From the NCBI RefSeq assembly GCF_030373185.1, contig NZ_JAUCZH010000004.1, positions 310,001-374,000 on the forward strand: a stretch of 64,000 bases of DNA, given 5' to 3'. This DNA comes from Tabrizicola sp. (GTDB lineage: Bacteria; Pseudomonadota; Alphaproteobacteria; Rhodobacterales; Rhodobacteraceae). The translations under genes were made by a program, and so were the position numbers. The notes beneath the pieces were generated by a model that saw only the letters and a list, made by a program, of their open reading frames with translations, did no database searches and was not told the DNA's origin. This document shows, piece after piece, positions 52,809-63,673 of this stretch (position 1 is the stretch's first letter; every line of letters starts with the position of its first letter).

Positions 52809-53379
52809 ACTGTGGCCGTCTGCCGCGAATGGCGGCGCAACTGTAAGATTTCTTCGAAAAGCCATGTAGTTATCAGGCGCTTCCGGGGGTGCGTCAACAA
52901 CTCCGGGTATTTTTCGGTCCGGTGGGCAAGGACCGGTGGCCAACGTGCTGGTGCAACGGCCTGAAAACTGTGCATCCCTGTTGTTGTCTGTGAACGGTCA
53001 GGTGGTGCCGCTGTTCGGTTGCGCGCGCAACGCATCAAAGGGGGCATCAAGTCTTTTGGTCAACCGTTCAAGGGACCGCCGGGGGAAGCCTTGCGCACGC
53101 GTCCCCACTTCAGAACTTCGGGCCAGCCGGGGGGGGTAGGTCATTCTTCGTGAACCTCACCCATCGGACCGCTGTGGTAACTGGCCTGTCATAATTGGGT
53201 AGAAAAAAGGTTGCACGGTTCGCCCCGTCATCACGGGCTGAAGCTGGGGCAGGGGGCGACGGCAACCGCAAGGGGGGCTTTGGTTCGTCGCGGCCCGACC
53301 GCCAGGGCTTTTCCTTGCCGCCCTTGTTCCCGTGAGTTCCGGGGGCAACCGGCGACCCATGGGGGATTTCTGGTGGAAA
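52809..53379. other. Gene-free stretch left of the island
   Basis: I see no supported gene here. Short ORFs exist on both strands, for instance a Pro/Lys-rich one at 53110-53451, but they lack recognisable motifs or start signals. Base composition is mixed, with G-runs near 53130 and a change to AT-rich sequence at the right end. Confidence 0.4.
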
Positions 53380-53405
53380 TGAAATTGAACTTTCATTCAA
53401 TTTCA
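53380..53405. repeat. 10-bp perfect inverted repeat next to the left attachment site
   Basis: TGAAATTGAA (53380-53389) and TTCAATTTCA (53396-53405) flank the six-base loop CTTTCA. It is AT-rich in a GC-rich chromosome and lies 19 bases left of the tRNA-end repeat. It may be an operator, recombination-related, or a hairpin at the old island border. Confidence 0.6.
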
Positions 53406-53423
53406 ACATCTTAACTAGATAAA

Positions 53424-53438
53424 GTGGCGGAGAGACAG
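53424..53438. repeat. Left attachment-site copy of the tRNA-Ser 3' end
   Basis: GTGGCGGAGAGACAG is identical to 63583-63597, the 3' end of tRNA-Ser(CGA) plus one flanking base. An inverted partial copy, CTCCGCCA, lies at 53453-53460 and pairs with TGGCGGAG at 53425-53432. An integrase fragment begins 156 bases to the right. This is the expected layout of one end of a tRNA-integrated element. Confidence 0.7.
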
Positions 53439-53593
53439 TCCGCCAATTCACACTCCGCCAGTGTCCACAGAGGTAAATAAGTATCTGTTTTAAATTAATA
53501 TAATTTTTTATCGGTACTGTACCTGTCCAACCATGTGCGCCATCATCCCCACCTTAAGGTGGGGACAAAGGTGGGGACAGATTCGTGGCGTGC

Positions 53594-53758
53594 GTGCAGA
53601 ACAAGCTCACCGATGTGGCATGCAGAGCAGCGAAAGAACCGGGCCGACTGAGCGACGGTGGGGGGCTCTATCTTGTGGTCAAGCCAAGCGGGACGAAGTC
53701 TTGGGTCTTCATGTGGAGGAAAGACGGTCGCAGCCGAGAAATGGGGCTTTCCGGCTGA
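53594..53758 (+). pseudogene. N-terminal fragment of a P4-type tyrosine integrase
   Basis: From a GTG at 53594 the frame reads KLTDVACRAAKEPGRLSDGG, then a Tyr-Leu-Val-Val core with KPSGTKSWVFMWRKDGR, stopping at 53756-53758. This is the arm-binding domain (DUF4102 type) of phage-like integrases. The central and catalytic domains (R...HxxR...Y) are absent. The frame breaks at EMGL, where family members continue GSYG. A direct repeat of GGTGGGGACA precedes it. The helicase frame takes over at the break. Confidence 0.8.
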
Positions 53759-55470
53759 CCGAAAGCGGCATCTACATCGAGCATTTCGGGGTGCGGCGTG
53801 AGAAGGCACGGGACGGCAGCGAAAGGCTGGTCACTGCGCCCTTCGTGGACCGCGACGAGTACCTGGCTGGCATGGACTGGAAGCGGAAGGTCCACGCCGA
53901 GCACGAAACAAAGCTGATCGAATCCTACAGCTATGAACGGCAGGAGGGGCGCCTGCTGACCGGCCTCGCCGAAAAGCTGACTCCGCATGTCACCCTTAAA
54001 CCCCGCCCGGTCGACACGATTTATGACCGAATCGTCGAGATGAAGCAGGTCGACGACTTCTCGAAGCTGATCGGAACCTTCCTGCGCAAGTTCAAGAGCG
54101 GCGGCTACAGCCTGCAGGATTGCGAGACCAAGTCCGACCGGATGAAGCTGGGCAAACGAGCCCGGGCCTTCCTCGACGTCTTCGCGCCGGTCTTCGAGGA
54201 ATACCAGAAACGCCTAGAGGGCCGGATCGACTTCGAGGATATGACCCTGCGCGCCGCGCGCTATGTGGAAACCGGCCGCTATGTCAGCACGTTCCGGCAC
54301 ATCCTGGTCGACGAGTTCCAGGACATCTCGCAAAGCCGGGCCCGGCTGGTGAAGGCGCTGAAGGCCCAGCATCCGGATGTGCGCGTCTTTGCCGTGGGTG
54401 ACGACTGGCAATCGATCTTCCGCTTCGCTGGATCCGACATCCACCTGATGCGCCATTTCGGGCGGGAGTTTGGCGGCAGCTTCGATGGTGAGGCAGGCGT
54501 ACACCGAACCGTCGACCTCGGTCGCACCTTCCGTTCTGTCGACCAGATTGCCTTTGCCGCCCGGACCTTCGTCCTGCGGAACCCTGCCCAGATCCAAAAG
54601 CAGATCGTCCCGGCCGGGACCGCGAGCGAGCCGGCGATCAGGGTTGTCACAGTGTCCAAAGGTGAGGACGCGGGGAAACTCAACGAGGCGCTTGCCGCCT
54701 TGTCAGCGGCTGTGGTGCCGGAGGCAAAACCCGCGCCGGTGCTGATCCTCGGCTGTTACCGTTTCATCGAGCCGGACATGCAGGGTCTGCGGCGCCGGTT
54801 CCCGCGGCTGAAAATCACCTTCAAAACCATCCATGCCTCCAAGGGGCTGGAAGCCGACCACGTCATCCTGCTGAACGCCGACAGCGGGCGCACAGGGTTC
54901 CCGTCAGAGATCGTCGATGACCCCCTCCTGTCTCTGGTGTCCCCGGAGGAGGAGGCATACCAGAACGCCGAAGAACGCCGAGTCATGTATGTCGCGATGA
55001 CCCGCGCCCGCCACACCCTGACGATCCTTGCCTCGAATGCCCGGCCGTCGTCATTCGTCACCGAGCTTCGCAAAGACCCTGCCTACGGGATCTCGACAGC
55101 CCCCGGAGCTGAACCCGAAGCTCACGTCTGCGGCGAATGTGGCGGGCGATTGCTGGGCGTGACCGGGCAGGATGGCCGCATCTGGTATCGGTGCGAGCAT
55201 GTCCAGCATTGCGGAAACCTGCTGCCCGCTTGCCCGTCCTGCGGAACAGCCCTGCCACGCCTTGCCGAGGGGACGAGCGAGGCTCGATGTGGGTGCGGTG
55301 CCAGCTATCCGACTTGCCCTGACTGCGAAGATGGCTGGCTGGTCGAACGCAGCGGCAGCTTCGGCAAGTTCCTCGGCTGCATCCGCTATCCTGCATGCCT
55401 CGGGAAATCGAAGGTGGCGAAAGGTACTAGAGCACCGAATGTGCCTGTGCTGAGATCTAAGAAAGCCTAA
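53746..55470 (+). pseudogene. 5'-truncated UvrD/HelD-type helicase with C-terminal zinc ribbons
   Basis: About 575 residues of an SF1 helicase. Walker B VDEFQDIS, motif III GDDWQSIFRFAGSD, TFRS, TIHASKGLEADHVI and RRVMYVAMTRAR are present, as are Cys-rich C-terminal fingers (CGECGGRLLG, CPSCG, CPDCEDGWLVERSGSFGKFLGC). The N-terminal half with Walker A (GKT) is missing; homology begins at about FRLTESGIYIEHFG, where the integrase fragment ends. An ATG at 53533 keeps the frame open, but its first 70 residues are integrase sequence read out of frame. It should not hydrolyse ATP. Confidence 0.75.
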
Positions 55471-55698
55471 GGGACAAGCCACCGTAACTGTCCAAGTGGA
55501 TCAGCTTCCGGCCCATTGCTGCCTGTCGGGCTGGCCGCCACGCTGCAATGCCGCTTCCGCGAACCGGTCACTGAGGCATGCAAGTGTAGCAACAAGCGCA
55601 GGTGTCAGTGAAGATGGGCAAGACTTTTCAAGATGAAGACGGACCGAGGGTCTACCGATCAGAATATGCGACGGAGAAATCGCTGCCCTGCAGCGACC

Positions 55699-56301
55699 TC
55701 ACCCCAAGGCAAGACCAGCCGCAATCGCCCACATGGTTGCGCCCACACCAACCTCCAGCCAGACCCATGCCGCGGCCTTAGCAAACACCGGCGCCAACAA
55801 CCGCGCCCCAAAGCCCAGCGCGGTGAAAAAGCTGAACGATCCCAGTGCCGCCGCCGCCGCAAAAACCCATTCATGCGGCGCATATTGCGTCGAGATCGAC
55901 CCCATCAGCACCACCGTATCCAGATAGACATGTGGATTGGCCCAGGTCAGCATCAGACACGTCACTAGAACTCGGCCCAAGGGGGCCGCCCCGTCCGGGG
56001 CTGGCCGCAACGCCACGCCACCGCGCAGGGCCGCGCGAAACCGCAAAGCCCCATAAACCACCAGAAACGCCACCCCCGCCCAGCGCATCGCATCCGGCAC
56101 CCAAGGCCAGGCCGCTGACACGACGCCGAACCCGGCCACCCCCGCCGCGATCAGAAAAGCATCCGACACGGCACAAGCTGCCACCACCCAGCCCACATGT
56201 TCGCGGCGCAATCCCTGCCGCAACACAAAGGCGTTCTGCGCCCCGATGGCGAGGATCAGGCTGAGTGAAACGACATATCCCTGCACCGCCGCTTCAAGCA
56301 T
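55699..56301 (-). CDS. LysE/ArgO family amino-acid exporter
   Basis: A 200-residue membrane protein with five to six helices. The N-terminal LSLILAIGAQNAFVLRQGL and TWANPHVYLDTVVLMG motifs are diagnostic for LysE/ArgO exporters of basic amino acids. Its start overlaps the ACT-domain gene by eight bases. An ArgP-like regulator, the usual partner, is 3.3 kb away on the same island. The 228 bases to its right, towards the helicase fragment, hold nothing clear. Confidence 0.88.
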   Translation of the reverse strand: MLEAAVQGYVVSLSLILAIGAQNAFVLRQGLRREHVGWVVAACAVSDAFLIAAGVAGFGVVSAAWPWVPDAMRWAGVAFLVVYGALRFRAALRGGVALRPAPDGAAPLGRVLVTCLMLTWANPHVYLDTVVLMGSISTQYAPHEWVFAAAAALGSFSFFTALGFGARLLAPVFAKAAAWVWLEVGVGATMWAIAAGLALG

Positions 56302-56641
56302 CCAACAGCCGTCGCAGCACAGCCACAGAATCCTCGCGCCGGCCCCAATGCACGAAGATGTGGTCGTGGTGGTAGCCCGCGATCACCTTGCAGCTGATCC
56401 CATCGGCCGACAAAGCTTCCACGAATGCCGCCGTCAGCCTCACGGCCGCCAGATCGCTCGACCTCGCCAGGCTGATCCGCGCCCACGGCTCCGACATCAA
56501 TCCCGCCGCCTCCAATGCGGCCAATGGGGCAACGACCGTCAGCCCCTCGGCTTCGGTCAAAGTCGCAAAGGGCGCAAAAGGCAGCTGACCACCCGGCCAA
56601 ACTGCATAGCCGTACGGCGCTCCGTCTAGCTGAGGTTCCAT
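56294..56641 (-). CDS. ACT domain-containing protein
   Basis: A 115-residue protein with a C-terminal ACT-like fold (LTAAFVEALSADGISCKVIAGYHHDHIFVHWGRREDSVAVLRRL). ACT domains bind amino acids. The pairing with lysE suggests a sensing or auxiliary role in amino-acid export. The ATG at 56641 is used; a TTG two codons upstream is possible. Confidence 0.75.
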   Translation of the reverse strand: MEPQLDGAPYGYAVWPGGQLPFAPFATLTEAEGLTVVAPLAALEAAGLMSEPWARISLARSSDLAAVRLTAAFVEALSADGISCKVIAGYHHDHIFVHWGRREDSVAVLRRLLDA

Positions 56642-56643
56642 AG

Positions 56644-57009
56644 TCAACCCGCCCCGAGAATATCAGTGACGCATTTGATTTTAAGGCATAATTTAGAATG
56701 CCGGAGCGAATACAACTTGATTTCCCCCTTTCGCTTTGCCTGCATCAACCCGCCCAGCCGAAGACGGGCCAAATGATAGTTGATTACTGTCTGGTTCGAT
56801 CCCAAGAGCGCATGAAGCTCAGTGATTGACCGCGCGCCGGCCGTCAAATAGCACAAGGTCATCAGCCGAGCTTCATGAGACAAAGACTTCAGGACTGCCG
56901 CCGCGTTGGTAGCCGACCTTGCCGTTCGATCGGTCGTAATTTCAGCCGTTCCGTCATTGTCGGCGAAACAGAGCCGGGTTGTAGAGGCTCGATTAAGATA
57001 AATGGACAT
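56644..57009 (-). CDS. ArsR-type winged-helix regulator
   Basis: A 121-residue protein with an ArsR-like HTH: KSLSHEARLMTLCYLTAGARSITELHALLGSNQTVINYHLARLRLGGLMQAKRKG. The N-terminus is polar and lacks obvious metal-binding Cys clusters; a few Cys are scattered. It lies immediately upstream of the ACT-lysE pair on the same strand and may control it. Confidence 0.75.
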   Translation of the reverse strand: MSIYLNRASTTRLCFADNDGTAEITTDRTARSATNAAAVLKSLSHEARLMTLCYLTAGARSITELHALLGSNQTVINYHLARLRLGGLMQAKRKGEIKLYSLRHSKLCLKIKCVTDILGAG

Positions 57010-57134
57010 CGGGAAGGTACCTTTGGCTGCTCGCCCTCATCGCATCTAAGTGAGCGGCGAGCAATATCTTGCTCGGATGCCGCACCACTGAATACCGAGA
57101 AGTGAGCTGCTGCCGCCTCTGTTGTACAACCCAT

Positions 57135-57548
57135 ATGATGGATTCATCTCGTGAATCCAGCGGGCTAGCTGGGCTGCGTGAGCGGCGGCCCCCCGCCTAC
57201 AAGACCAGGAACTGGCCGGCCTATGAAAACGCGTTCAATCGCTGTGGTTCGCTGACGATCTGGTTCGATCCCGCCTTCACCTGGGAGGCCACTTCCACTG
57301 GCAAACGTGGTCGCCAGCCTGACGACAGCGATGCTGCCATCCTGACCTGCCTTACGATGAAAGTGCTGTTCGGCATGGCGCAAAGGCAGACGACGGGGTT
57401 TGTCGAAAGCCTCCTCGGGTTGATCGGTCTGGACTGGGCGGCGCCTAACTTCAGCACACTGGAGCCGTCGCCAGAGGACCTTGAAGGTAAACATTCCCTA
57501 CCGTGGGTCAGGCAGCCCAATGCACCTGCTAGTCGACAGCACAGCCGA
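57135..57548 (+). pseudogene. IS5 family transposase fragment, frameshifted and truncated
   Basis: The frame from 57135 gives YKTRNWPAYENAFNRCGSLT, IWFDPAFTWEA and MKVLFGMAQRQTTGFVESLL, the N-terminal part of IS5/IS903-type transposases. An extra G near 57462 shifts the frame; the downstream frame reads SRRQRTLKVNIPYRGSGSPMHLLVDST and then stops matching. The DDE catalytic part after the first Asp is missing. Two small IRs, GATTCA/TGAATC (57141-57157), lie at the start. Confidence 0.75.
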
Positions 57549-57564
57549 TCATTCGCTTTCGCGC

Positions 57565-57759
57565 TTAGCTTGCCAGTCTCAGCTGAACCGGCCGGGCTTC
57601 CGCAGCGACGACCTTTTGTCTTAGATAGCGAACACGCCGTTCGTGTTCCACGAACGCGATCTCCGAGTTCTGTCCGGCGCGAACCGAGACAATGGACTGC
57701 AGAAAATCCTCGTAGATCTGGATTTTGAGCATGTCGATTTCCTGTTGCGATACTTTCAT
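57565..57759 (-). CDS. Small hypothetical protein
   Basis: A 64-residue helical, charged protein (MKVSQQEIDMLKIQIYEDFL...). GAAGG lies about ten bases before the ATG at 57759. I do not recognise it. Codon use is less GC-biased than the chromosome, as for other island genes. It could be a real accessory gene or chance. Confidence 0.3.
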   Translation of the reverse strand: MKVSQQEIDMLKIQIYEDFLQSIVSVRAGQNSEIAFVEHERRVRYLRQKVVAAEARPVQLRLAS

Positions 57760-57768
57760 CTTGGACAA

Positions 57769-58462
57769 ACCTTCGAAGCTAGGACTTCTCTGGTTTTGTG
57801 GTCAAAGATGGCAAAATCTTGGCGTTGCAAACGCTGTCCGATACCAAGATTCGAGCTTGGGGTTGTCGGTGGTCAACGTCTCCGCGGTGCTGTGCTAGTC
57901 AGAATGGCACGTCGCGGCTCAAAGACTGGACATGACAACCGCCACCGGGACACGGACACCTCCAGAAGAGTTGTCTGCTGCCGTTCGCATGACGGTTCGC
58001 GAACGGCAGCTAGTCGAAGTTGCACAGCCTGGTCAAGTTACTATGCAACCATATGCTTATAAAGAATTTTCTCTGCAACACGCCCCAGCGCTACGCTGCG
58101 CTGAATTCACTCTTGAACACGAAGCTCTTGCCCGCGAAGGGGATTAACACGGCAAGAACTCGCTTTACGACCAGATAGGCACTACACACGATTCACTCAC
58201 TACAATTATAAATTTATACACCTAATGCACGATTAGCAATCCTTATATTGCTCGATACTGTAAACGGTTTGTTCGCGATACGGCACAAATAATGATTCCC
58301 AGATTTGACCCTTACGGGTGCGCCGGCGGCGTATTGTTGCCATTTCGGCATCGCTTCCGCAGTGCAGGCACCAAGAATCGTCCTTCTGTTTCCGTGCGAG
58401 AGTCGCATCGCCGCCGGACGCAAACCGAAGAATCATTGCGATGCGAGGCTCCAGCCAAATCC
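57769..58462. other. AT-richer stretch with no convincing gene
   Basis: Several small ORFs are open (for example 57932-58147 on the plus strand, and a Cys-containing one at 58233-58436 on the minus), but none shows a recognised motif. Sequence around 58190-58270 is notably AT-rich. It probably consists of degraded mobile DNA. Confidence 0.4.
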
Positions 58463-59383
58463 TTACAGGGATGCATCCATCGGCTGCTCGACGGCCCTGA
58501 GATCAATCCGACTTACGGCCGCGGGCAAGCGGCGGTAGCTCGGGTCCTGGCTCAGCTTTTGGTGGGCCTTATGCAGGTGCCGTGCCGGAATCTGCGGGAA
58601 GAGATGATGTACAAGGTGATAGGAGTCGTTGCGCGGAAAGAAGATGAGCCGCACCAGCGTTGGTGCCAGCACATTGCGCGAGGCTTCGATCTCGTCTTTC
58701 GCGCCTACCAGACCGGCATGATCCAGGCAGTCCGTCCAAAAGTTCAGCGTCGGATAGATGTAGAACAGCGGCAGAATGACGAAGGCGAGCGTTGCCATTG
58801 GTTCAAGCAGCAGGAAGATCGCCATCGCACCGAGGAGCGCAAGCTTGAAGCCGTGGAACAGTCGGCCATCCTCAGCCGAGAGGTTGATGCTGGTGTAGAG
58901 CGGCAAGTGTCGCCCGGTCAGTGGGACGAAGACATGGCGCAGGACCGTCCGCGGGGTGATCGGGTCATGCAGCCCTAACTTTTCGATCAGGCCGAATTCT
59001 GCGTCATGTTCGTAATCTCCGTTGTGGGCATGGTGCGACAGATGGTCGTCACGGTACTTGCGGAAGGATTTCAGCAGGAGCGCGGCGCAAAACCGCCCGA
59101 TCGTCACATTGTCCGACCGGTCTTCGGCGAAGGTTGCATGGCTGCATTCATGAACGATGTTGTTGATGCCCCGCAGACGGGTGCCGATAAAGGTCGCCGT
59201 GGCGATCGCGCCTGCCACAGTCCAACCTGAAAACGGAAGCGACAGTAGGTAGCTACCCAAGAGGATTGATGCGAGGATGAGGCCGACGTATCCGGCAACA
59301 ATCAACCATGCGTCCATCCTGCGATAGCGTTCCAGACCCAGGAACGGCCGAATATATTTTCTTCTCAAAACCCGACCGGACAT
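58463..59383 (-). CDS. Fatty acid desaturase family protein
   Basis: A 306-residue membrane desaturase with three histidine boxes: HECSH, HLSHHAHNGD and HLVHH. Hydrophobic segments surround them (AWLIVAGYVGLILASILLGSYL, LALLGAMAIFLLLEPMATLAFVILPLFYIY). It would introduce double bonds into acyl chains, or hydroxylate or desaturate a related substrate. It is divergent from the LysR-type gene, which may control it. The diiron site appears complete. Confidence 0.85.
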   Translation of the reverse strand: MSGRVLRRKYIRPFLGLERYRRMDAWLIVAGYVGLILASILLGSYLLSLPFSGWTVAGAIATATFIGTRLRGINNIVHECSHATFAEDRSDNVTIGRFCAALLLKSFRKYRDDHLSHHAHNGDYEHDAEFGLIEKLGLHDPITPRTVLRHVFVPLTGRHLPLYTSINLSAEDGRLFHGFKLALLGAMAIFLLLEPMATLAFVILPLFYIYPTLNFWTDCLDHAGLVGAKDEIEASRNVLAPTLVRLIFFPRNDSYHLVHHLFPQIPARHLHKAHQKLSQDPSYRRLPAAVSRIDLRAVEQPMDASL

Positions 59384-59547
59384 GCTTCCCCCCTCATTGT
59401 TGCCTTAACTCTACCCAAATTGCTGAACAAACTAAAGACTTTCGGCTCATTGTTCACCTCTATGCTACCGTACATGAGCACAGCTTATGCAAGATCAGCC
59501 CTCGCCTTTACGTTTCTTGGACTTCTGCTTTATAGTGCATTGTGGAG

Positions 59548-59564
59548 CATAAGCGCTTCTTATG
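59548..59564. promoter_or_regulatory. LysR-type operator candidate in the desaturase-lysR spacer
   Basis: CATAAG-CGCTT-CTTATG, a perfect 6-bp dyad with five-base spacer, ends 13 bases before the LysR ATG. It fits a LysR-type box (T-N11-A) and could mediate autoregulation. GCTTATGC appears again about 60 bases upstream. Confidence 0.5.
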
Positions 59565-59577
59565 TTTGGGGGCAACG

Positions 59578-60498
59578 ATGTCACGCTATGACTATGATTC
59601 ACTGACGATCCTCGCGGCTGTCATCCGCGAAGGAAGCTTCGAAGCAGCGGCAAAGTCGATGAAGGTGACGCAATCTGCGGTCAGTCAGAGAATCAAGCAG
59701 TTAGAGGAAAAGGTTGGTGTGGTGCTTATCGCGCGTGGCAGGCCGTGCGTCCCGACTGAGGCCGGCTTGCAGTTCTTCCGTCATTTCGAACAGGTGGGTC
59801 TTCTGCAGCAGGAACTGGCCGGGCGGATGCGCGCGCTGGTTGGCGGCGAGGAGGGCGTTGCCGCCACGGTCCGCATCGGGGTAAACAACGATAGTCTGGC
59901 AACCTGGTTTCCAAAACTGATCAAGTTGGCAACTAAGGAACTTGGCATCCTCTTCGACATTCTTCCCGACGATCAGGAGTACACGGAATCCAGCCTCAGA
60001 TCCGGGGACGCCCTCGCCGTGATCACCACGCTGGAGACCCCTGTTCAGGGCTGCAAGATCATCTCGCTGGGGTCGATGGAGTACGTAGCCGTTGCGTCGC
60101 CCGAACTGTACCAGACCCACTTTGCAGACGGCGTTTCTCTCGAGGCCCTGCGGAACTGCATCTCTGTGGCGTTCAATCGCAAGGACACGATCCAGGATCA
60201 GTGGATGACGACTTGCTTTGGGGCAACGGTTCCGCTCTCCATCCACTATGTTCCTTCGTATGAGGGATACCTTTCATGCTGTCTGAACGGCGCAGGTTGG
60301 GGCCTGGTGCCAAGCATCGCCGGCAACCCCTTCATCGAGCGTGGTGAACTGGTAGAGCTTAGCCCTGGACAGAAGGTCAGCATCGCGTTGCACTGGCAGG
60401 CCGCCATGCAGTCGAGCGAGATCCTCAGCCGCCTTGGCAATCTGGTACTGGAAGTCGCACGCGAGCATCTCGTCCCCGACAGTTTCCGTCCGAATTGA
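59578..60498 (+). CDS. LysR family regulator, ArgP/LysG-like
   Basis: A 306-residue LysR protein: an N-terminal HTH (LAAVIREGSFEAAAKSMKVTQSAVSQRIKQLEEKVG) and the ArgP-typical VVLIARGRPCVPTEAG, followed by a substrate-binding domain. ArgP/LysG activates lysE/argO in response to Lys or Arg. Here the adjacent divergent gene is a desaturase and lysE is 3.3 kb away. GGGGG precedes the ATG at 59578; the longer frame is rejected. Confidence 0.85.
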   Translation: MSRYDYDSLTILAAVIREGSFEAAAKSMKVTQSAVSQRIKQLEEKVGVVLIARGRPCVPTEAGLQFFRHFEQVGLLQQELAGRMRALVGGEEGVAATVRIGVNNDSLATWFPKLIKLATKELGILFDILPDDQEYTESSLRSGDALAVITTLETPVQGCKIISLGSMEYVAVASPELYQTHFADGVSLEALRNCISVAFNRKDTIQDQWMTTCFGATVPLSIHYVPSYEGYLSCCLNGAGWGLVPSIAGNPFIERGELVELSPGQKVSIALHWQAAMQSSEILSRLGNLVLEVAREHLVPDSFRPN

Positions 60499-60670
60499 TC
60501 TGATTGGGCCGATAGTCGAAAAACTTCGCACCCTGTCGAAGTCGGGGCAGGGTGATCGCTGCACCGCCTTATGACCCCTTCGCCGACGCATTGAAGCCAT
60601 ATTGATCCTCAAAATCAACCCGATTGGGCATTCTGCCGTTGGTTGGATGGTTTGTGAGGAGAGAACGCAT

Positions 60671-61039
60671 GTGACTTCTGCATTGGCAAATCGAGGTAGC
60701 GGCTTTCGTCCGCAGCCTGTCGATCCCACACCATTGCGTCCGGCTTTGCGCGCCGCGATGGATACAGATGGGGTGCCGGCTGTCGCGCTGCTCAGCTTTG
60801 GGGCCCAAGAGCAACTCGTGCTGAGGGTTCTGGTCGAGCGATTTGGCGGCGAGGTGACGGGTGGCGTATTGACCCGGCACTTGACCCAAAAGTCGGGCAG
60901 GACGCAATCCGCCCTCGGACCCAGATTGATCGATGTTCTGCAGAGCCTTCACCGGTTTGGAGCCCTAAGTCTTGAGGCCAACGGCGAAAACGACTTCATC
61001 GTCAGGCTCTTGCCTGGAGGAGCAACGCTATACGTTTGA
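60671..61039 (+). CDS. Hypothetical protein
   Basis: 122 residues from a GTG at 60671 preceded by GAGGAGA. The C-terminal stretch AQEQLVLRVLVERFGGEVTGGVL and LGPRLIDVLQSLHRFGALSL looks like a folded helical domain, but I recognise no family. It lies between lysR and the recombinase fragment. It could be a small DNA-binding or helper protein. Confidence 0.4.
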   Translation: MTSALANRGSGFRPQPVDPTPLRPALRAAMDTDGVPAVALLSFGAQEQLVLRVLVERFGGEVTGGVLTRHLTQKSGRTQSALGPRLIDVLQSLHRFGALSLEANGENDFIVRLLPGGATLYV

Positions 61040-61153
61040 CCTTTCGGAGAAGGCTTTCCGGGCCCGCTGCCCTGTCACAATCAAAGGCCCTCTGAAAACA
61101 TCCGGCCGAAGGTCAGCCTGGCAATCCATTCGCAGTCTCGCGGTAGCCGAAGC

Positions 61154-61975
61154 GAATATGTCCCGCTCGGGTACGATGTGAAGGACCGCAAGCTCGTGGT
61201 GAATGAAGACGAGGCTGCCACCGTGCGGGGCATCTTCGAGAGGTTCGTCGAGGTCGGATCAGCGACCGTGCTGGCCCGTGAACTGCGCCGCAAAGGGCTC
61301 CGCAACAAGCAGGGCACGTTGGTCGACAAGGGATATCTCTACAGAGTGCTGGTGAACCGCGTTTATCGCGGCGACGCCGTCCACAAGGGCAAGGCCTATC
61401 CCGGCGAACATCAGGCCATCATCGACGAGCAGCTGTGGGATCAGGTCCATGCCATCTTGCGGCAGAACCCGCGAAAGCGCGCCAACAACACCCGCGCACA
61501 GGCGCCTGCATTGCTCAAGGGTCTGATCTTTACGGCCACGGGCGCCGCCATGACCCCGAGCAGCACGAAGAAGGGCGCGCGGCGATACCGGTACTACGTC
61601 TCGATGGACGTCATCAAGAATCGCGAACCCAGCGACGCGGGCATCCCGCGCCGCCTTCCTGCCGACCTCGTGGAAGCGGCTGTGGTGACCGAGTTGCGGC
61701 GGGTGATGCGCGCGCCGTCGATCACGGCACAGGTCATTGCCCACTTGGCGCGCGAGGGTCACGCCTTCGCCGAGGCCGACGTGATCTCCGCGCTGCAGAC
61801 GTTCGATGACGTCTGGGGCCAGCTGTTCCCTGCAGAGCAGACCCGGATCGTGCAGTTGCTGGTGCGCCGGGTCACCGTGACGTCTGAGGGGCTGGTGATC
61901 GATGTCCGGACCGACGGCGTCTCGGGCGTCATGCGCGACATGATGGCGCCACGAAAGAAGGTGGCGGCGGAATGA
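61154..61975 (+). pseudogene. C-terminal part of a large serine recombinase
   Basis: The frame reads YVPLGYDVKDRKLVVNEDEA, then IFERFVEVGSATVLARELRRKG, the Recombinase domain, then a linker (NTRAQAPALLKGLIFTATG with KKGARRYRYYVSMDV) and a helical C-terminus. The N-terminal catalytic domain with the nucleophilic Ser is absent upstream, where the frame shows no family match. A GTG at 61178 could still allow translation of 265 residues. It overlaps the next gene's ATG. Confidence 0.75.
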
Positions 61976-62355
61976 TGAAACCCGACGAGTCCATCCAGAT
62001 CTTCGTGCCGCTCAAGGTCCGCAAGCAGAACGGGCGGCCGAAGATCATGCCGCCCTCGACGTATCTGCCCAGCGAAGACCGGACACAGGATCCGCATATC
62101 CTGCGCGCCATCGGCAGGGCGTGGGGCTGGCGGCGGCGCATGGAGGCTGGCGAATTCAACACGGTCACCGATCTGGCGAAAGCCGTCGGGCTGGCCGAAC
62201 GCCATGTCAGCCGACAGCTGCGGCTGGCTTATCTCGCGCCGGGGGTCCTCAAGCGCTTGGTCTACAAGCGCGAGGTGCCCGCCGTGACCCTGTTGAAACT
62301 GACCGATGTCGCGGCCCTGCCATGGCACGAACAGCCGGAGCGGGTGTTCGACTGA
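61972..62355 (+). CDS. Recombinase-associated protein with helix-turn-helix-like region
   Basis: A 127-residue basic protein. The segment GEFNTVTDLAKAVGLAERHVSRQLRLAYLAPGVLKRLV resembles a DNA-binding helix-turn-helix. It starts in the ATGA of the recombinase fragment and is therefore its former operon partner. Such genes commonly follow serine recombinases in Rhodobacterales elements. Its precise role is not known. Confidence 0.65.
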   Translation: MMKPDESIQIFVPLKVRKQNGRPKIMPPSTYLPSEDRTQDPHILRAIGRAWGWRRRMEAGEFNTVTDLAKAVGLAERHVSRQLRLAYLAPGVLKRLVYKREVPAVTLLKLTDVAALPWHEQPERVFD

Positions 62356-62358
62356 GGC

Positions 62359-63195
62359 TCAGTGAAAGCTCGCCTGAAACGTCGTCGCGGTCAGGGAGAC
62401 ATGCGCGTCCAGCGGCGGATGCAACTCGAACGCCTTAGGCTCGCGTGAGAAGTTCCAAAGCCGGAACAGACGCCATTCCGACCTGCGCTCCTCGGCCACG
62501 GCCAGTTCGTTGCGGGTGATGTGGAAGGGCGTGCGCTCCCATCCGTTCGTCGTCTTGACCTCGATCAGCCGGGCGAGCCCGTCCGGGGCGAAACTCGCGA
62601 TGTCGTAGCCCGCGCCATCGCCATCCTCCTCCGACACCCAGCGTACCTTGCGCGCCAGATCGTCCCGTCCTGCCGAGCGCAGAGACGCCCGTTCATGCGC
62701 CAGCACACGTTCCTCTCCCGCGCGGCCGAGGGCCCGGTTGCGCTCGTCCCGGCCCGCCACGTCGAACTTGCGGGCGATGTGCAGCATCTGGTCCAGTTCC
62801 TGCGGCGGCGGCTGGTTCGACAGCGTCGGCGGCGGTCCGATCCAGATCTGCGCTGCCTCGCGCAGGCCAGCACCGGGTTGCAGCCCCGGTTGGCGCCCGA
62901 GCCAGGCCGGGTTCAGCGCCAGCCATCGCGCCACGGCATCCACCAAGGTCATCTGGAAATTGAACGCAGGCTTGTAGCCGGGGATCCAGTCTTCGCCGAG
63001 CCCCTTCAGAACCGCGCTGATGTTCTGGTGCTTGAACTCGACGGACCCCTCGGACCGGTCGTTCAGCAGCGGCAGCAGCGCGCGGCGATGCTTGGCCTTG
63101 CTGTAGCGGCGCGCGGAGATGTCGTCGGCCAGCATCGCGAAGTAATCCGCGACGATCAGGTCGTTCTCTTCATCCGTCCAGGGCCCGTTCGACAT
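62359..63195 (-). CDS. DUF3883 domain protein, PD-(D/E)XK nuclease-like
   Basis: A 278-residue protein. The C-terminal part has GRAGEERVLAHERASL, GYDIASFAPDGLARLIEVKTTNGWERTPFHITRNELAVAEE and FRLWNF, typical of DUF3883 and Mrr-like nuclease folds (E, D and E-x-K). The N-terminal half has TDEENDLIVADYFAML and SVEFKHQNISAVLKGLG, seen in restriction-related proteins. It could be a defence nuclease; no methylase partner is near. Confidence 0.75.
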   Translation of the reverse strand: MSNGPWTDEENDLIVADYFAMLADDISARRYSKAKHRRALLPLLNDRSEGSVEFKHQNISAVLKGLGEDWIPGYKPAFNFQMTLVDAVARWLALNPAWLGRQPGLQPGAGLREAAQIWIGPPPTLSNQPPPQELDQMLHIARKFDVAGRDERNRALGRAGEERVLAHERASLRSAGRDDLARKVRWVSEEDGDGAGYDIASFAPDGLARLIEVKTTNGWERTPFHITRNELAVAEERRSEWRLFRLWNFSREPKAFELHPPLDAHVSLTATTFQASFH

Positions 63196-63530
63196 TGCGC
63201 CAGGCTATGGGCACGAAGTGTGTTTGTCATCAGAGACTTCCGGCAGGGTTCTGGCTCGCTTCGGACGCTTCCGCCGGACTTCGGGATCGGCCGCCACGGA
63301 GCCGTCTTTCTGGCCGCCCTGCGCCTTCGTGTCCGTCTCTGTCACCGGATTAACTCGCGAACGGGACGACCCCATGAGCGCGGCAACCCATTGGAGTTTC
63401 AAGGATGTTTCACGCCGTCCCGTGACAGTCGAGGGGCGCTCGAAGAGAGACGCAGGCCATTCGGAGACCCATTCCGCGTCAAGCGCCCAGTCTCCGAAGG
63501 GCGGATGGACCTGCCAACGCCCTTTGAAAC
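63196..63530. other. Gap between the DUF3883 gene and tRNA-Ser
   Basis: No convincing gene. A minus-strand frame (63205-63651) runs through the terminator and the tRNA, so it cannot be a complete gene; its C-terminal part (GDWALDAEWVSEWPASLFE) might be a fragment of something cut by integration. Confidence 0.35.
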
Positions 63531-63558
63531 AAAAAGAAAAAAGGCCCCAATCGGGGCC
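63531..63558 (-). terminator. Intrinsic terminator downstream of tRNA-Ser
   Basis: On the minus strand GGCCCC-GATT-GGGGCC is followed by TTTTTTCTTTTT. It begins 25 bases after the tRNA 3' end and fits as its terminator. Confidence 0.85.
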
Positions 63559-63582
63559 CCTGGACGAATTCAGTATCTGAAT

Positions 63583-63597
63583 GTGGCGGAGAGACAG
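63583..63597. repeat. Right attachment-site copy within the tRNA-Ser 3' end
   Basis: GTGGCGGAGAGACAG, identical to 53424-53438. It covers the acceptor end including the encoded CCA, so the tRNA stays intact after integration. Confidence 0.7.
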
Positions 63598-63673
63598 GGA
63601 TTCGAACCCTGGGTCGGCGCAAACCGACAACGGTTTTCGAGACCGCCGCATTCGACCACTCTGCCACCTCTCC
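63584..63673 (-). tRNA. tRNA-Ser (anticodon CGA)
   Basis: A 90-nt class II tRNA. The acceptor stem GGAGAGG/TCTCTCC, discriminator G and encoded CCA are visible. The anticodon loop CTCGAAA gives CGA, decoding UCG. A long variable arm (TTGTCGGTTTGCGCCGAC) and TTCGAATC of the T loop confirm serine type. Confidence 0.95.

Follow-up and report, generated by a model that had tools for sequence, protein, structure and literature searches.

The 3' ends of tRNA genes are usually credited, as attachment targets, to integrases of the tyrosine type. Here we analyze a 10.2-kb block at positions 53424-63597 of a 64,000-nucleotide stretch of a Tabrizicola sp. genome (the window; contig NZ_JAUCZH010000004.1), which is bounded by two 15-bp repeats, one of them at a gene for tRNA-Ser(CGA), and which appears to hold the remains of a P4-type tyrosine-integrase island and of a prophage with a serine recombinase. 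Serine-integrase prophages are already a known kind. The available text of the Paracoccus virome paper reports tyrosine phages with 15-bp tRNA-Ser repeats, places only one serine phage, vB_PamS_Pami6, at tRNA-Met, and leaves the largest serine cluster without a site (PMC6536676). Six Mesorhizobium elements with serine recombinases are found among elements at tRNA and other sites; the available part of that source leaves the site of those six unstated, and they could be prior cases (PMC8627217). The attB (bacterial attachment site) of the Acidithiobacillus phage AcaML1 is listed in the accessible portion of its description as 'srrA' with 10-bp repeats (PMC3826726), which we take to mean ssrA, the gene for transfer-messenger RNA (tmRNA), that is, an RNA gene with a short repeat; the same portion does not take up the case of an RNA gene with a serine recombinase. 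According to the text available from Rutherford et al. 2013, the distance of the outer zinc-domain motif from the centre is 5 bp shorter in attB than in the phage attachment site, attP (PMC3783163). Our literature search, as far as the available texts extend, found no paper on tRNA-Ser targeting by the recombinase family described here, and island databases (e.g. TIGER/Islander 2025, cited in PMC12884075) may hold cases.

Judging from the sequence, the block is very probably a stack of at least two decayed elements which used one tRNA-Ser(CGA) by different chemistry, and the serine-type integrase of the prophage family appears to aim at the common 3' end of serine tRNA genes. A P4-type tyrosine-integrase island would have entered first via a core of about 15 bp, and its integrase gene would have been left next to the tRNA fragment displaced to 53424. 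A serine-recombinase prophage would later have entered at the regenerated tRNA 3' end, its tRNA-side end (61157-63583) being the survivor, and later loss would have removed most of both elements. The end positions, the broken genes and the stacks of elements in relatives are read directly from the DNA. We infer the order of events in this genome, with the tyrosine island older and the prophage younger, because the newest insertion at a regenerated tRNA end adjoins the tRNA.

The tRNA-Ser(CGA) gene, the proposed target of both elements, was located by ARAGORN at 63584-63673 on the minus strand, with its 3' end pointing left into the block. The 15-mer GTGGCGGAGAGACAG is present exactly at 53424-53438 and at 63583-63597. 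The right copy comprises the tRNA 3' end and one further base, with a 7-bp core, TGGCGGA, at 63584-63590; TCGAACC, the T-loop motif, stands outside the copy at 63602-63608, which is +19 to +25 counted from where the core starts. The left copy is a displaced tRNA-Ser 3' fragment and the outer attachment site of the tyrosine-integrase island. The first-pass annotation had called matching 15-bp block ends, with frequent chance occurrence elsewhere as the point to check; both copies are real, one of them being the tRNA 3' end, and they are the only two in the genome of the window (G000; 3.6 Mb, 96% complete), with none for the reversed-pattern control. Within the 30 kb left of the tRNA gene, its longest exact match has 15 bp, a length that 2 of 200 Markov shuffles of that stretch also reached (about a 1% event by length alone). 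A chance origin is unlikely because the match falls exactly at the tRNA 3' end and an integrase fragment adjoins it, not because of its length. The intact tRNA gene and the displaced 3' fragment are in the same orientation, as in Islander-type islands at tRNA genes.

That integrase fragment, which the first-pass annotation had also placed just inside the left copy, is the N-terminal part of a P4-type tyrosine integrase (53606-53755, plus strand), which reads towards the tRNA; the stretch 53570-53758 matches Arm-DNA-bind_3 (PF13356, E=2.1e-11, profile positions 1-49 of 83). It is all that remains of the island's integrase gene: the frame stops after it, and a piece of a UvrD-type helicase follows in a different frame (53757-55470, plus strand; the end of an open frame at 53533-55470, with domains from about 54028). 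The N-terminal part of the helicase is missing, and the profile match begins at 135 of 271. Two relatives share the architecture of the left end. In the same-genus genome G019, the 14-bp tRNA fragment TGGCGGAGAGACAG lies 5.8 kb downstream of tRNA-Ser(CGA) and is followed by a 431-amino-acid integrase gene that encodes all three Pfam domains of P4-type enzymes and points back to the tRNA. The Paracoccus lutimaris locus (L130) has a 14-bp fragment too, after which come a gene for a 454-amino-acid P4-type integrase, also pointing back to the tRNA, an AlpA gene, a gene for an AAA protein with a weak match to NrS-1 polymerase, and tRNA-Ser(CGA). These apparently intact counterparts may show what the left end of the block once looked like. 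Outside the block, the flank at 53297-53423 is homologous (77-78% identity) to a stretch of another genome of the genus (G003, contig C14), which likewise stops at TGGCGGA, where it abuts a serine-prophage left arm. Since the homology ends at TGGCGGA there too and the mobile DNA that follows is different, position 53424 marks the boundary of an element.

The right 2.4 kb of the block has a different origin. It begins with the C-terminal part of a serine recombinase (61157-61975, plus strand; from about residue 151-171 to 442 of 442), which has lost the resolvase catalytic domain; no full copy was found elsewhere in G000. A small gene behind it (61972-62355, plus strand) has no Pfam match, while its relative in L106 matches phrog_14161 'recombinase'. 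A NO VEIN-C (NOV_C)/DUF3883-like protein is encoded at 62359-63195 on the minus strand, and the non-coding right end of the prophage (63196-63582) contains a terminator-like hairpin and ends with ATTCAGTATCTGAATG against the core. We searched with the recombinase fragment and used the best 80 of 115 loci, some of them from one genome. From 61157 towards the tRNA, the DNA is 91-97% identical in 27 other loci (L098-L124) from Paracoccus, Rhodovulum, Marivita, Roseicyclus, Jiella, Roseibium and other hosts, some of them metagenome-assembled genomes (MAGs). Recombinase copies in MAGs labelled Burkholderiaceae (L103, 99%), Kuenenia (L138, 58%) and Acidobacteria (L152, 64%) group with alphaproteobacterial ones, which may reflect mis-binning or transfer.

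The module match reaches its tRNA-side end in 25 loci, namely 24 of these 27 (L104, L110 and L120 fall short) and L130. An intact tRNA-Ser 3' end follows directly in 18 of the 25, with anticodon GGA, TGA or GCT in place of the CGA of G000. The other seven run through TGGCGG into other DNA, which is a prophage left arm (L103, L116, L123), a 14-bp tRNA fragment (L121, L130) or unclear (L112, L124). At L103, L116 and L123 we considered tmRNA or another RNA as the target and rejected it, none being present there by Rfam. As the module ends exactly at tRNA-Ser in those 18 loci, its position is set by its own attachment end. This bears on the proposal of the first-pass annotation that the block is one integration followed by decay, in which the serine-recombinase module and everything else between the 15-mers would be cargo of a single tyrosine-integrase island or later insertions into it. 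The two matching ends and the integrase fragment inside one of them speak for such an island. Its existence at the tRNA 3' end stands, as do the mosaic content and the boundary at 53424, but the single event does not agree with a 2.4-kb module that ends at tRNA-Ser in other loci and at other isoacceptors, nor with Paracoccus lutimaris (L130), where the stack holds both kinds of element in reverse order. We regard a single island as very unlikely.

The intact form of the module is seen in L106, where it is the end of a prophage of at least about 43 kb with a DUF2924 gene, the full recombinase and the small gene behind it. The phage genes of L106 encode large and small terminase subunits, a head protease and a GTA_TIM tail protein, and much of the DNA is common to other loci. 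The recombinase carries the Resolvase (PF00239), Recombinase (PF07508) and zinc-ribbon (PF13408) domains, the last below its curated cut-off. No phage structural genes were seen in the G000 block, and a DNA search of a phage collection gave no match. In their left parts, the prophage regions L098 (Paracoccus luteus) and L106 (P. indicus) have far-end DNA in common, which includes a gene for type I restriction and one of GmrSD type.

A tRNA scan of the 80 loci gives, for the 3' flanks, 42 tRNA-Ser (GGA 21, TGA 12, GCT 5, CGA 4), 5 tRNA-Gly(GCC) and 1 tRNA-Arg(ACG), each of which points its 3' end at the recombinase. One tRNA-Ala in these flanks has the opposite orientation, and a single tRNA-Phe lies on the 5' side. 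TCCGCCA is the 3' end of 47 of the 48 distinct tRNA-Ser entries in the fetched loci, the remaining one having no readable end, and it also ends the tRNA-Arg used in L133. In a tree of 79 recombinases, of which the bootstrap had not settled, the tRNA-Gly users form one clade with support 100/100. A Roseomonas/Acetobacteraceae clade of the same recombinase family (L164, L166, L172, L174, L176) is situated at tRNA-Gly(GCC), against TGGAGCGGGCGAAGG. Elsewhere in G000, a contig ends 459 bases after a tRNA-Ser(TGA) (G000:C4:558583-559040), where another repeated element may be present.

The seven-base core TGGCGGA is the tRNA-Ser end TCCGCCA on the other strand. Both the core and the spacing of the arms described below are directly observed. 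In genome G034, two elements with identical first 40 bases are stacked at tRNA-Ser(GGA), 24,778 bp apart; at the tandem junction only TCCGCCA is common with the tRNA, and the inner element ends in the 7-bp core. We located left arms by seeking GGCGGA with common DNA after it and non-common DNA before it, which identified the phage left arm at junctions in L103, L116, L120, L123, L135, G003, G022 and others. When the gap was left free in the pattern TGGCGGA-N(4 to 28)-TCGAACCTTCTC, 125 genomes around Paracoccus yielded 32 matches, spread over 26 of them; the gap was 16 every time, and the reversed pattern had no match. In ten arms picked from the recognized left arms, TCGAACC or a variant differing by one to three bases lies at +24 to +30 from the core start, while in the consensus of 43 tRNAs adjoining elements TCGAACC lies at +19 to +25. 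The relatives hence combine a short core with an outer motif that is 5 bp nearer the core in the tRNA (attB) than in the phage arm (attP). One element end adjoins the tRNA in some genomes and TGGCGGA with the left arm in others; together these give the occupied and the unoccupied state of the site, viewed through stacked elements.

We interpret this to indicate that the recombinase of the prophage family would act as the catalyst that joins the phage site to the last seven tRNA bases, TCCGCCA. Since the phage carries the same seven bases, integration would leave any of the tRNA-Ser isoacceptors intact. TCGAACC of the T-loop, whose distance from the core is 5 bp shorter in the tRNA than in the phage arm, is probably read by the recombinase. 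If another integrase or a general insertion hotspot instead placed prophages at tRNA-Ser, the serine recombinase would be a passenger, and it is true that tyrosine-type elements use tRNA-Ser too, here and in the available text of the virome paper (PMC6536676), and that elements are stacked there. A passenger would not be expected to show a tRNA type that follows the recombinase tree, nor a core of only 7 bp with arms and a 5-bp shift that fit serine-integrase sites, and the five scanned L106 genes nearest the tRNA include no other integrase; we consider this explanation very unlikely. Somewhat less improbable, though still unlikely, is that homologous recombination between tRNA-Ser loci brought the module to this tRNA, without integration in this lineage. 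The 3' parts common to tRNA-Ser genes would permit it, a related module with a NOV_C protein 95% identical is found at tRNA-Ser(GGA) in the same-genus genome G026, and the prophage left arm has been lost in G000, but with family elements at all four isoacceptors such a transfer is not needed.

Several observations weigh against integration by the serine recombinase at tRNA-Ser. The available 3' flank holds no tRNA in 32 of the 80 loci and is 8.5 kb or longer in 23 of the 32. A further element at the end explains some of the 32, and others are unexplained. The tRNA-Ser users are not one clade on the recombinase tree (2 changes). At the G034 junction the left-arm motif is missing from its customary distance, the 32 left arms are akin to one another and hence are not independent tests of the gap, and the chromosomal side of the junctions has no conserved motif. 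Of 40 distinct right-arm sequences, a count made without L130, 27 and so not all have YGAA beginning at offset 12. The missing left arm means that integration in G000 itself is inferred from relatives. Finally, DNA searches of 61 relatives, 394 family genomes (about one per genus, with 2 candidates scored in each) and 32 genus genomes did not find the G000 left flank joined directly to an intact tRNA-Ser, the empty site that the first-pass annotation had proposed to look for. The sole long flank match is G003, where another mobile element follows the core; the rest in the family and genus searches are short (25-47 bases).

Gene order does not decide the empty-site point: the distance from tRNA-Ser(CGA) to the antiporter gene that here stands left of 53424 is 42 kb in G022 (downstream, same orientation) but 344 kb in G007, and the genes adjoining the antiporter in G007 are on another contig in G000. 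In comparisons of the left end, Cereibacter-type relatives and G019 offered no shared far flank. A common boundary near -43 kb in the extended-locus comparison was considered as the prophage left end and rejected, as it is not a phage end, and G482 was rejected as an empty site, as judged by translation it runs on into an apparent other phage gene. An RND-type efflux system and the Na/H antiporter lie about 1.2 kb apart in G007 and about 27 kb apart in G000 (window positions 23300-50300), where the interval holds capsule synthesis, molybdopterin and nitrite/sulphite reductase genes, a P-type ATPase and a second exchanger.

The NOV_C protein matches the PADLOC candidate defence family PDC-S36 (profile PDLC05008) with 434 bits over residues 1-277 of 278 and profile positions 1-279 of 280, which corresponds to full-length membership. 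The gene, kept full length in the G000 remnant, is a candidate anti-phage defence gene. Gene content between recombinase and tRNA differs among loci. We took 19 large proteins, chosen by size and not at random, from 16 such intervals (G000 included), and 12 match PADLOC-DB, which spans known and candidate systems, at 1e-3. Two of the 12 matches are weak (L127, L159) and one is a generic helicase (L147); the others include Dsr1, Gabija A and B, type I restriction, Cas9, PDC-S49, PDC-M65B and the PDC-S36 protein of G000. Beyond the tRNA, 1 of 10 large open reading frames (taken from 14 listed) matches PADLOC.

Between the two ends, the annotated genes agree with the mosaic of fragments and accessory genes described in the first-pass annotation. 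The accessory genes at 55699-60498 encode a LysE exporter, an ACT-domain protein, a helix-turn-helix (HTH) regulator with a match below the Pfam cut-off, a piece of a DDE transposase, a fatty-acid desaturase and a LysR regulator, and are assigned to neither element. The LysE-type exporter (minus strand) and the LysR-type regulator (plus strand) are divergent and 3.2 kb apart, with the other four between them, possibly as a former neighbour pair split by insertions.

Taking the loci together, we favour, as reasonably likely, a broader view in which a two-gene serine integrase family, consisting of the recombinase and a small partner, with DUF2924, evolved general targeting of RNA genes. Its clades would recognize the 3' ends of tRNA-Ser of every isoacceptor and of the tRNA-Arg that shares their end, of tRNA-Gly(GCC) and, via AcaML1, of tmRNA, with the near-universal T-loop as the outer recognition motif. 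Such a design would give several equivalent sites per host and tandem prophages, and the slot between integrase and tRNA would be an anti-phage defence locus. If the targeting of tRNA-Ser ends by this family holds, serine-recombinase prophages of the Paracoccus virome type gain a site, which should be predictable wherever tRNA-Ser genes end in TCCGCCA, and mosaics at tRNA-Ser loci are explained by two integrase classes that reuse the same regenerated end. The enzyme, for which each genome would offer several natural attB sites, would be a candidate tool, and the recognition rule could be tested directly through the spacing of the T-loop motif.

Among known systems, the left end of the block resembles P4-type tyrosine-integrase islands and satellites at tRNA genes, in its tRNA 3' fragment of about 15 bp and its Arm-DNA-bind_3 integrase, to which L130 adds AlpA and the AAA protein; it differs in that the integrase gene is at the tRNA-distal end and points to the tRNA, with only the N-terminus kept in G000. 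The 11 serine prophages of the Paracoccus virome, siphoprophages in the available text (PMC6536676), are like the relatives found here in host and enzyme class, a likeness that does not imply the same recombinase. The large serine integrase LI of Listeria (A118 family) has, in the available part of its description, attP and attB sites that share a core and an outer motif shifted by 5 bp, as here (PMC3783163). In contrast to that enzyme, the target here is the end of an RNA gene, attB is conserved in its tRNA half only, and a separate small gene follows the recombinase. The recombinase of AcaML1 (JX507079) is 52% identical over 96% of the query and is followed by a gene for a 127-amino-acid protein annotated as 'site specific recombinase small subunit', in the same place as the gene at 61972-62355, to which we liken it by position and annotation. 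AcaML1 differs from the family described here in having a different phage body and in apparently using tmRNA instead of tRNA-Ser.

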